From the NCBI RefSeq assembly GCF_016097555.1, contig NC_054704.1, forward strand, positions 77,860,263 to 77,924,262: a stretch of 64,000 nucleotides of DNA, in the 5' to 3' direction. The notes under the pieces were generated by a model. That model was not told the origin of the DNA and searched no databases. It worked only from the letters and a program-made list of their open reading frames with translations. Position 1 is the stretch's first letter. Each line of letters opens with the position of its first letter. The stretch comes from Gigantopelta aegis (lineage: Eukaryota > Mollusca > Gastropoda > Neomphalida > Peltospiridae). Below, piece after piece: positions 18,501-24,500 of this stretch. Position numbers and translations under genes: made by a program.

Positions 18501-21500
18501 TGCAAAAAACATTCAGAAAACATATGTGGGACAGATGGATGGACAGACGGACAGACAGACAGACGGACGGACGGAGATGAAACCTATAGTCCCCTCCGGT
18601 TGGACCGGTAGGGGACTAATATTTTTTTATTTTTTTTACACATAATCTTTCTATTAATTCTTTAGCATCAATTTATGATTGCAATATTACCATTTACAAC
18701 AGGCACAGACCTATTGTAAATAGTGATTGTAACGTATGACAATTGTAAGCTAAGATTTTAGTGCTAACATAGCTTTGTAAAACATTGAAGTATGTCACTC
18801 AACTGGTTTCTTCTCTCATTCTCTACTGCAATTACCACATTAAAACACCTATTAGCCACTGATTAAACAATGTGCCAGGATTCAACAAAACAAAACATTA
18901 ATTTCTCAGCCTTATAAACAATTGTGACAGTACTCAGCAGTGCCCATGTAAAAAGCTGTTTCAAAAGTGTTTTATAACAGCATTTTTATCATTATACAGT
19001 ATTTACTTAACCCTAAACTTTTCTTTCTGTAGGAGGCCCCCAATATCACCTGTTGACTGTGGTTACATTCAATTCCATAGTGCCATACCCAAACATTTCT
19101 TTCTGGCAGAAACACTGACAAGATACCAAGGACAGATTACCTGATGCTGGAACTTGGTTGGATCACGTGCACTGACTGGCACGACACTGCCGTACACGTG
19201 CAACTCACGGACAATGGAACACCCGCCCTTCAATTCGGGTCGGAACGTGTCAGCGGAACACTTCCTCAATCGAAGCAGTCCGATGAGAATGTCCTGTTCC
19301 GGGTCCTCATAGGACAAAAACGTCTCCCAGCCACCGTTAGCGGCATATTCCCGTCTAATGAGTTCAGCCTAAAATAGAAATAAAGACATCTTTAAAGCAA
19401 ATTTTCTCCTCTACCATTATTTACTGTACCCCACAATGGTCAAGATAAATATAAAACAGTAATACTTACCCATTATAACGAATGTCAGCTGCTTACACTT
19501 CTAAATAGTTAAATAATATAAATGTATTCAATATTGCTGCTTTTGTTTTGTATGTTTTGTTTCTTACTATTACCAAATACTGAAAGTTTTATTTGTTTAA
19601 CGATACAGCTAGAGAATAATGATTAATTAAACATCATTAATCATCTGAATGTCAAACATTTGATAATTTTAAAAATCAACATGAAGTCTTTACAGTGAGC
19701 CTACTACATTTTTCCATTAGTAGCCAGGGATCTTTTATTACATGCACTTTCCCACAGACAGGATGGCAACATATCACCACACAGATACACATTTGTTTTA
19801 GACCATTTTGAAAACATTCTAGATTTTGAAATACTATATATATATATATATATAGAGCAAACTGTTGTAGCACACGCCTGTCATGGGCACAGGTGTCGAC
19901 TTGCGCCGGCACCTCCGTGCAGGACAGGATTTTATAAACAATAAAACTTGCATTTGTATAGCATTATTTTGCAGTCTACAACAATTTAAATAATATTTAT
20001 TTCAATTAAATGTTATCCATAGTAATTTGAATGGAACAACAATCATGTAGAATAACAATACAACTGTCACAACAGTTACGTATGTTCACCTCATACGGCT
20101 TCACTTTGTGATGAATCTCCTGTATTCCCACCTCTCGCGTGCGCACGTCTCGACACTGAGTGCCGAGGTCCTTCATTCGGGCGAGAGCCAGCTCCCGCAG
20201 GTTCCCATGTTCCACACCAGATGTCACCAGCGGCATCGGGATGTCTCTACATATAGAGTAGACAATGTCTGACCAATCAACAAAACAAAACATTGACAAT
20301 TGTTAAGTAAGCAATGTTAGGCGTACTTCACACAATGTAGATAACCAGACATAACATAATGTCCAAATAGGAGACCACATACAACATAGATAATGTCCAA
20401 GTTTGTTTTGTTTAATGACACCATTAGAGCACATTGATTAATAAATCATTGGCTATTGGATGCCAAACATTTGGTAATTCTGACTAATTCTAAACCCGCT
20501 ACATTTTTCCTAATACAGCAAGGGATCTTTTATATGCACTTTCCCACAGACAGGAAAGCACATACCACAGCCGTGGTCCAGTTTTGGTGCACTGGTTGCA
20601 ATGAGAAAAAACCCAATCAGCTTAATGGATCCACCGAGGTGGTTCGATCCTGCGACGCAAGCACCTCATGCGAGCACTCAACCAACTGAGCTAAATCCCG
20701 CCCCATAATGTCTGAGAAGAAGACTATAACTACTATATACATATTACTGTAGGTTTAAAAAAAATTAATAACAGGCCAGTATAAACAGAACAAAAAGCAT
20801 GTTTGAAGATAGATGTTACATTCCTTAATAAATTGACTATAAAGATTTAACAGGTATGTAAAAGGCCATGATATGTGCTATTCAGTTTGTGGGAAAGAGC
20901 ACATAATATAACAGATCCTTTGCTGTTAATGGAAAAATGCAGTGTGTTTCTTCTGAGACAAAATATCAGAATTATCAAATGTTTGACATCCAATAGCCAG
21001 TGATAAATAAAGCAATGTAGAGGTGTTGTTAAAGAAACCAACTTGACAATGTACATCTAAACTAGATTTACCTCTGCACTCTGTACACCCTCGTCCATGG
21101 AGGAACCAAGGCAAGGATTCTAGCAACGAGGTCAATCAAAACTTGACAATGGACATCTAAATTAGATTTACCTCTGCACTCTGTACACCCTTGTCCATGG
21201 AGGAACCAAGGCAAGGATTCTAGCAACGAGGTCAATCAAAACTTGACAATGGACATCTAAACTAGATTTACTTCTGCACTCTGTACACCCTCGTCCATGG
21301 AGGAACCAAGGCAAGGATTCTAGCAACGAGGTCAATCAAAACTTGACAATGTACATCTAAACTAGATTTACCTCTGCACTCTGTACACCCTCGTCCATGG
21401 AGGAACCAAGGCAAGGATTCTAGCAACGAGGTCAATCAAAACTTGACAACGTACATCTAAACTAGATTTACCTCTGCACTCTGTACACCCTCGTCCATGG

Positions 21501-24500
21501 AGGAACCAAGGCAAGGATTCTAGCAACGAGGTCAATCAAAACGCTGGGAGGATAACTCTTGTATCGGCCAGTTTTCCACAACTCATACAACCCTGAAGAA
21601 CAGAAAAACTAAATTCAATGTTGAACAATGGCAATTGATTACCTGTGTTTTGCATTACAATTCAATGTTTAAGAATAATATTTAAAAACACAAACTGTTG
21701 ATCAGCAGGATTCGAATCTTACTGCACTGATTCACATGGCATTTGACAAGGTATTTAAACTGTTATGGTTCAGAGCTTGAAAAAGATCATGTGTTGTTTT
21801 TCAAAGAATAAACTATGTGGATGCAGCTAGTGGAAGGAGGTTTTGAAAAAAAAAATTGGTCTTGAACTTGAACCTGTCACTATAATAGATGCTATGGGAC
21901 CATTATGTCCTATGACCTTGAATAACATCATTCATGTAATAATAATTACCCGTTCCTCGGATAACCAATGTTGGATACAACTTCAACCCATCAGCTCTGA
22001 AGGCAGGATTTTCAAAAAATTCCTACAATGAAAAGTCAATTCCTGATAATACAAAAATTCTTTACTTCCCTTTAAAAGGTTATTTTTCATTGCAACGAGT
22101 TGTATAACTGGCATGTCAAAGGTTGGGGTATGTCTTATTCTGTCTACGGGACAGTGCAACAAAGATCCCTTGCTGCTAACTGAACAAGTTACTGATCAGT
22201 TACAGTAATATTTTGGACCTAATTCGATTTCAAAAACAAAATCACAGAATAAGACATCAAGACCCTGACTTGTGTCATGCCACAGCTCATGTTTAACACT
22301 GTGTCGGTCTGTTTTTACATCGACGTATGTCGCATCATTTGCAGTGCAGCCAAGCATTGTTATTTCTTAGGCGCATTCATTTCAGTAATGCCATTAAACA
22401 CTAATTATTACTTTCATTTTACATAATGAAACAATAATTAAAAATTAATTATTAATTACTTAATAATACTGTGTTTTTAATGAAAACATACAATTGTTTT
22501 TTTGTTAAATGTTTTTACCGGAAGTAGTAGTATTTTGTATCAAAATATTACAATTTGAACCGAGTGTATAATTCGGAATGTTTCCGAATGAATGCAGAAC
22601 CTAATGAAACATTACGAAAGGTACCAATAATGTTCACTTCGCCTATTTTTATAAATTTTCTCCTCTTTCTCCAAAGAAGTGAAAAGTCACTTCTCCGACT
22701 TTTTTCAATTCTTTATTTAGTTCCAAAATTGAAAAGAATGAAGTAAAATGAAATGTACAGGTACTTACTATAAACTGTTCTACATCTCGGTCCCAGCCAA
22801 CATTTGGCAGGTCAGGCATCATGTGGACAACGACCTTGAACCCCGCATCTTTAGACATCTGAAAGGACTCGCAGACGGCCTTCACAGTGTGACCTCTGGA
22901 AAGACAAGTCTAAAACCATCAGAAACATAACAGCAGTATCTAAAACACTCAAAAACAAGATGTCAATATATAAACCTATGAACAACATGGCATCAATATT
23001 CAAAACTATGAAAAACATGATACCAATTTAATTGCCATATTTTTAATAATTATTTTAATTCAACCCTTATTTTTCTTAAATATAATGAAAATCAGTTTTA
23101 AAAAACAAACACAGTATGTATAATACAAATGTGAACCTTCTGTACAACAACTTGTGAAAAACATTACTTTCTGCACCAGATGTTTGTTTGAGGTTTTTAA
23201 TATTTTCTGTACCCAATGTTAACATTTTGATCTATCATGCCAAAATATGTAATACAATTTTAACACAACCTTTGGCACCAATATTCCTTTCTTCATGGTA
23301 AACTCATGTACATGTATGAAGATTGGTTGACCTAGCAGATATACTTCACGAGAAAAAAAAAGAGAGCTAAATACAAAATATTTACATCAACATAAATGCA
23401 AAACAAGTTGATGCAGTAACATGTTCAGGAAGATGAGCATTTATAAGTTACACTATAATAAAATAAATATTAGATTTTCATCCCCACCCGCCCTGAACAT
23501 ACCCCCCATTTTTTTTAAACTTAGCCATGTACACATAAAAACATTTGGATGAAAATCTAAAAGTATTTTTATTATGGCTTTATAAAATAAAAGTTATGAA
23601 TAAAATATGAATAAACTCAAACTGAACCTGTTTGTGTCTCTTGCGACATCTTCATAAACACTCTGCACCCCGATCTCCAAACGTGTACAGCCATATTTTA
23701 ACATGTCACTGAAAAAAAAAAAAAACAATTGAGAAACAAAGTTCTCATTAATAATTCCATTCCATTATTCTAACCTTAATTTTTAAGAATTCCTGATTCT
23801 GTAATTATTATGCCATACTCATGGGTCAGCTCAAGGCACGGTTGCAAACCAGATAAGGCAGCGTGGCAAACCAGTTTCATGTGTAAAGCACTATGGTGGT
23901 TTTTTGCAGTCAACAATGTCCAATTTTCGGGACACAACAGCAAGTAAGGAGGGCAACCACATTTGCCATCGTTGAGGTGGTAAAATTCTGAACCTGTCAT
24001 GCATCAGACAATGGCTTTACATCTGGGCTACGTTCCAATCCCCTCCCCCTCAGATAAAAGGAAGAAACAGAACAAACCTGATGTGTTTTCTTAGACAGTA
24101 GTCTGGTCGAGTTTCAATAGTGATACCGATACACTTTGTGGTACTTTTTTCAGAATATCTGAAAAGCAAAAAAAAAAAAGCTGTCACCATTAAAACTACT
24201 ACTAAATAAGATTAATTTTAAGACATGAGTGTAGATAAATTAATTATTAAAAAAAAACCCACATGTTAAAAAGATAATCTTTAAAACACAATAAACCAGC
24301 AATACAGAATACAGTGTATTTTGAATTTTAAAACCACATTTCAGAGCAGTGACAAAAAACCGACACAATTTTATATTTCAAATAATAACTGAGCTAACAA
24401 TTAAAACAATTATGTACAAGACAGAAGTTTGTTAACAGCAAATATGTTTGCAGAAGACAGCATGACATTGTTTTAAAAATGTATTTTCCATTTTTCAAAA

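Follow-up and report, generated by a model that had tools for sequence, protein, structure and literature searches.

How is an exon's end chosen when the same splice donor (5' splice site) is offered to the transcript several times in tandem? This question is raised by a 64,000-nt stretch of the genome of the gastropod Gigantopelta aegis (the window, C6:77860263-77924262 of the species' own genome), in which two exons of ELP3, the gene for the catalytic subunit of Elongator, end in minisatellite arrays that repeat the exon end together with its donor. Similar arrays are found at exons of other genes in this genome, and we consider it probable that the ELP3 arrays are near-neutral minisatellites of the 'mirage' type, tolerated because, of the donors on offer, the one closest to the 3' splice site (acceptor) of the exon itself would win.

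Using homology, open frame and GT-AG introns, we modelled 16 coding exons of ELP3 (E2-E17) on the minus strand (15597..32988), which, when joined through their first donors, read as a single open frame, 543 residues long, that ends in a stop. The alignment of a 465-residue stretch to the Elp3 chain 8ptx_C covers residues 82-546 of that chain and has no gaps (E 7.9e-292), and this collinearity with a solved Elp3 across almost its full length makes the identity of the gene, as judged from its sequence, secure. The open frame and the ungapped alignment also uphold the gene identity and exon phase assumed in the original prediction, which had been made on this DNA from the letters alone. Its numbering of the first affected exon as exon 13 holds provided that one start-codon exon sits upstream of E2-E17; this exon was not located in our gene model and is placed upstream of E2.

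Exon 13 (21472..21592, minus strand, 121 nt, delimited by sequence and homology) ends in ...VYRVQ R, with its presumed functional donor, GAG/GTAAAT, after 21472. Its flanking introns measure 357 and 1225 nt, and exon 14 (20090..20246, minus strand) opens at 20246 with ATGTAG/AGACATCC, the common acceptor. Across the donor, Tandem Repeats Finder (TRF), run on the window, reported a period of 100 with 5.0 copies at 21040-21542 (97% matches, score 964), and copy-by-copy comparison placed a five-copy, 100-bp array at 21041..21540 on the minus strand, with copies 1 to 5, in transcription order, at 21441-21540, 21341-21440, 21241-21340, 21141-21240 and 21041-21140. In the minus-strand unit, columns 1-69 are exonic and columns 70-100 intronic, as in the earlier description, where 69 bp of exon end are joined to 31 bp of intron start. 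The copies had been called exact as well as almost identical; five copies there are, and almost identical they are, yet 5 of the 100 columns vary (49 and 69 in the exonic part, 79, 89 and 91 in the intronic part), with 0-4 differences in any pair of copies. Copy 2 equals copy 5, one variant is common to copies 3 and 4, and across the five columns the copies carry both private and shared variants. Such near-identity agrees with the proposed recent or homogenised expansion. A search of the species' own genome with the array (1,149,253,464 bases in 5216 contigs, with very common words skipped and the best candidates alone scored) returned a single match, the array itself.

Beyond the presumed functional donor, the array lays out four decoys at the predicted spacing of 100 nt, their last exonic bases at 21372, 21272, 21172 and 21072 (21072..21372, minus strand); the decoy at 21272 has lost its last exonic G (-1 G>A). 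The sequence confirms all five donors and the acceptor at 20246, as well as the premature stop foreseen from AGG followed by TAA after the true exon end: each of the four decoys, if used, would yield an exon of 221-521 nt in which exon 13 is followed directly by arginine and a stop. This stop is encoded by the first intron bases and thus needs no selection. The accompanying claim, that the first donor is picked each time or else truncated isoforms are made, is better put less strictly, as passages of PMC9225289 describe five minigenes whose strong donors were identical and whose flanking introns measured 365 nt, and in these the upstream donor was used exclusively.

Exon 13 is not alone. A second array, passed over by the original prediction, lies at the end of exon 6 (26684..26747, minus strand, 64 nt in our gene model, ending in ...STQSYTGYE), whose presumed functional donor follows 26684; the acceptor of exon 7 is at 25528. 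By TRF and sequence, this array (26414..26714, minus strand) holds 3.8 copies of a 79-bp unit at 96%, repeating the last ~31 bp of the exon with the donor GAG/GTGGGT, so that four exon-like ends carry a donor (26684, 26603, 26524 and 26445). At both exons, the tandem unit spans the exon end and the intron start, and the GT is present in every decoy (4 of 4 at exon 13, 3 of 3 at exon 6). Across ELP3 as a whole, 2 of 15 donors and none of 16 acceptors fall inside TRF arrays, a tally based on 10 array intervals picked by hand from the TRF output. The motif CTAGTYTAGAT, common to the intronic parts of both arrays and found nowhere else in the window, was discarded as a shared element; its distances to the donors differ, and a 10/11 match between such units is, by our own estimate, not significant.

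This arrangement matches a class already described in amphioxus, to which the ELP3 arrays, judging by their structure, would belong: mirages are minisatellites that span exon-intron boundaries, and regular splicing is reportedly undisturbed by them (PMC3087553), as passages of PMC3902484, which add PGBD5 and troponin C, likewise report. The units in amphioxus (Adh3, globin BflGb6/BflGb9, PGBD5 and troponin C) are similar in size to those of ELP3, at 10-72, 150-160 and 157 bp (PMC3087553) and, in the passages concerned, 60 and 108 bp (PMC3902484). In G. aegis, unlike the amphioxus cases, the arrays occur in ELP3 and, among the exons sampled, in those of kinesins, myosins and ABC transporters, and our sample leans toward donors, whereas the amphioxus reports also include 3' boundaries. 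Among the matches listed from the open-licence literature, no title named the class in a mollusc. Passages of PMC6905558 describe a polymorphic 27-bp intronic minisatellite in an abalone gene and make no mention of its crossing a splice site, and the literature passages on earthworm metallothionein repeats and Caenorhabditis elegans minisatellites describe no boundary-spanning donor arrays. Passages of PMC4974935 present a nearer parallel, the potato RdRp gene, where a local tandem duplication also carries splice signals across an exon-intron border; there, however, the acceptor side is duplicated and a new intron is gained, while in ELP3 the duplication affects the donor side, and a new exon would not be expected.

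We sampled exon ends genome-wide, taking exon positions from searches with three families (80 myosin head, 58 ABC membrane and 124 kinesin motor matches); the repeated donor, together with the profile match, gave the presumed exon ends. In a first look at 60 loci, 8 had a TRF array over the position 20 bp inward from the exon 3' end and 1 had one over the exon 5' boundary, while the corresponding number for intron points at a distance of 200-1300 bp was 7-13. The main sample of 135 exons (66 of the 124 kinesin, 41 of the 80 myosin and 28 of the 58 ABC matches, in about 75 position clusters) kept stop-free matches on large contigs and left out small contigs, stop-containing matches and low-scoring rows that had not been fetched; arrays were counted from a period of at least 20 and at least 1.8 copies. 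Here, arrays crossed the 3' (donor) end of 13 exons and the 5' (acceptor) end of 2 (Fisher p = 0.0059), with ratios of 12:2, 12:2 and 10:2 under stricter filters. Events are slightly fewer than these counts, two of the 13 donor arrays lying in nearby C4 exons and one being a degenerate ~22-bp array. Coverage of donor ends was not significantly lower than that of the donor-side intron at +200 (13 vs 22 of 135, p = 0.15), whereas coverage of acceptor ends was below that of their introns (2 vs 16 of 135, p = 0.0009); at an intron depth of 50 nt, the donor side had 22 arrays and the acceptor side 6.

The sampled donor arrays begin 14-116 bp upstream of the presumed donor and include CAG/GTGAGT in a 28-bp unit repeated ~51 times, CAG/GTAAGA in a 33-bp unit repeated 46 times and GG/GTGAGT in an 80-bp unit repeated 8 times; in this genome, arrays range from 2 to ~50 near-equal donors, with units of ~20 to 169 bp. 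The exon 13 array is thus well beyond chance as a repeat, yet ordinary for G. aegis, and with arrays like it at 13 of the 135 sampled 3' ends and at exon 6, it is no peculiarity of exon 13, nor was the idea of ELP3 as a special case retained. Two sampled loci stood out. At L120 (G000:C10:85632584-85633356), the donor lies 4 bp before the kinesin match ends and is part of a 45-bp array of ~8.5 copies; this repeated donor, CAG/ATATCCTTT, resembles the U12-type AT-AC donor consensus, and its AT is kept in 7 of 7 decoys. At L035 (G000:C12:18119272-18122610), an ABC-transporter exon has both a donor array (33 bp, 46 copies) and an acceptor array (50 bp, 12 copies).

A donor bias across the genome is possible. 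It might further be seen as a natural genome-wide experiment, in which about a tenth of exon 3' ends have multiplied donors (up to ~50 copies, and with one donor that is AT-AC-like and U12-type in appearance) and acceptors almost never do, donor multiplication being near-neutral under exon definition and acceptor multiplication not; we hold the chances of this for about even. Of the 135 exons, 35 come from the first-look loci in which the pattern first drew attention, and these gave 7 donor arrays and 1 acceptor array. In the later 100 exons the asymmetry runs in the same direction, but these exons alone do not establish it; at 50 nt into the intron, 14 of their arrays lie on the donor side and 2 on the acceptor side.

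We compared decoys with the first copy in 13 arrays, namely both ELP3 arrays and 11 of the 13 sampled ones (one in which no anchor was found and a degenerate one being left out). The donor dinucleotide was kept in 162 of 172 decoys, and the idea that decoys are purged was dropped. Pooled mismatches amounted to 18 of 688 at -1, +1, +2 and +5; the exonic flank had 160 of 1892 and the intronic flank 220 of 1548, counts in which copies within one array are not independent. Compared by columns against the consensus of each array, diversity was 0.029 in the donor core and 0.049 at shifted positions (p = 0.15, 12 arrays), which leaves selective keeping of the decoys unsupported as well. An in-frame stop precedes the first decoy in 6 of the 13 sampled arrays and is absent in 7, so that truncation is not the rule of the class.

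As to how the exon 13 array arose, a dispersed, short interspersed nuclear element (SINE)-like repeat (20869..21045, minus strand) has its edge within ~5 bp of the array's intronic edge. In a self-comparison of the window, 20398-20567 aligned with it at 73%, and other places aligned with parts of it; it may be a SINE of the molluscan type. The haemocyanin domain family PF14830, itself molluscan, has 5 matches in this genome, all on two small contigs, against none in 14 control genomes, as would suit a mollusc. The flank that follows the last copy (CAAGTTGG) shares GTT with the exon side (AGCGTTTTG), and since the dispersed-repeat copy at 20398 reads CAAGTTTG, the shared stretch would there become GTTT. 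Together with ACTC at the junctions of the exon 6 array, GTT suggests microhomology-mediated duplication as the origin. We infer that the exon end and its donor may have been copied by local duplication, through the GTT shared between exon 13 and the dispersed-repeat edge ~30 bp into the intron, and that unequal exchange or slippage could then have carried the array to five copies and homogenised it, the exon 6 array being a separate event with a unit of its own. A further array in an ELP3 intron (50 bp, 27 copies, 28558-29925) appears, by eye, to derive from a dispersed repeat end.

The first copy would keep exon and donor intact, and under exon definition the acceptor of the exon would be paired with its nearest donor, such that the four decoys would remain intronic and the arrays persist as nearly neutral. 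Regular splicing of ELP3 in their presence is possible, given the frame that the first donors leave open. Passages of PMC9225289 report that, among near-equal donors, exon-defined exons lean upstream and intron-defined ones downstream, and that human events taken together favour the downstream donor in ~60% of cases. Exon 13 would fit the exon-defined class, and first-donor use is thus its expected default, at some risk from a weak +5 position.

Several observations weigh against this account. The exon 13 donor, GAG/GTAAAT, has no G at +5, and in the same passages of PMC9225289 near-equal human donors show an upstream preference of no more than 60% overall, and when both donors are weakened, larger exons are preferentially skipped. 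Human exon-intron boundary repeats are often accompanied by alternative transcripts, as stated in passages of PMC2812944. In the array abc_C6, only 5 of 10 decoys keep the dinucleotide, and the 100 exons fetched after the pattern had been noticed give 6 donor against 1 acceptor arrays (p = 0.12). The human IFI6 (6-16) gene is reportedly home to a minisatellite with multiple splice donors, said to go back to Turri in 1995. Like the exon 13 array, it gives one transcript several donors, but its downstream units are used as donors, according to passages of PMC4526556, and make isoforms, whereas decoy use in ELP3 would truncate the product. Moreover, mutation rather than selection may lie behind the donor bias. 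In one such scenario, donor sites themselves seed arrays, through tandem duplication that is coupled to transcription or linked to R-loops at 5' splice sites, with no selection against acceptor arrays; the donor excess at exon ends and 50 nt into the intron, in the later exons too, would agree with this. Yet donor ends are not covered above the intron background, leaving no excess to explain, and the loss at acceptors fits selection on the branch point and polypyrimidine tract; we regard seeding as unlikely, if the least so of the alternatives.

The decoys could also act as a regulated switch to unproductive splicing, their use leading through the arginine-stop to decay or to ELP3 without its C-terminal part, and repeat number tuning output. 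The GT kept in all four decoys, the immediate stop, the kept dinucleotides elsewhere with the lowest pooled mismatch at the donor core, and the usable repeat-borne donors of IFI6 (in the passages of PMC4526556) speak for such a switch, but the stop requires no selection, variability in the donor core columns is not significantly below that at shifted positions, most sampled arrays have no stop before the first decoy, and upstream donors win in the exon-defined minigenes of the PMC9225289 passages, and we think a switch improbable. Misassembly of a locus with one copy or another copy number is more improbable still: tandem arrays are prone to it, and the amphioxus draft contained an aberrantly assembled mirage (PMC3087553), yet the copies here differ by private and shared variants, their single genomic match lies on a 103-Mb contig, and many further arrays with different units occur. 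Least credible to us are nascent introns, in which the donor of copy k would be joined to the exonic TTGCTAG/AATCC of copy k+1, removing a 52-nt intron and leaving in-frame 16-residue repeats. Both sites are in phase 2, the sequence has TTGCTAG in frame in each copy, and intron gain has been documented for tandem duplication (in passages of PMC4974935) and proposed for mirages (PMC3087553); against this, only 12 of 18 bases ahead of the TAG are pyrimidines, the product would split a 14-residue stretch that is unchanged in the 8ptx_C Elp3 chain, and the frame agreement, at a chance of one in three, is unremarkable. The original Rogers form of intron gain, moreover, has an exonic duplicated segment, whereas 31 of the 100 bp are intronic here.

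Identical donors in tandem make a clean test case for the spliceosome's choice between equal sites, a question for which the work described in the passages of PMC9225289 needed built minigenes and which natural genes pose here. Exclusive use of the first donor would support exon definition far from human, and if use is not exclusive, repeat number could tune gene output. The asymmetry between donors and acceptors is directly checkable in any annotated genome rich in minisatellites.

Elsewhere in the window, two arrays have long open frames and possibly represent coding repeats, one at 51363-52138 (60 bp, 13 copies, YIIEDLVNV...) and one at 61549-62232 (45 bp, 15 copies, HPHPKATPSILRVNT...). 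An open reading frame at 10536-11204 on the minus strand resembles, by eye, a helix-turn-helix transposase of the Tc/mariner type.

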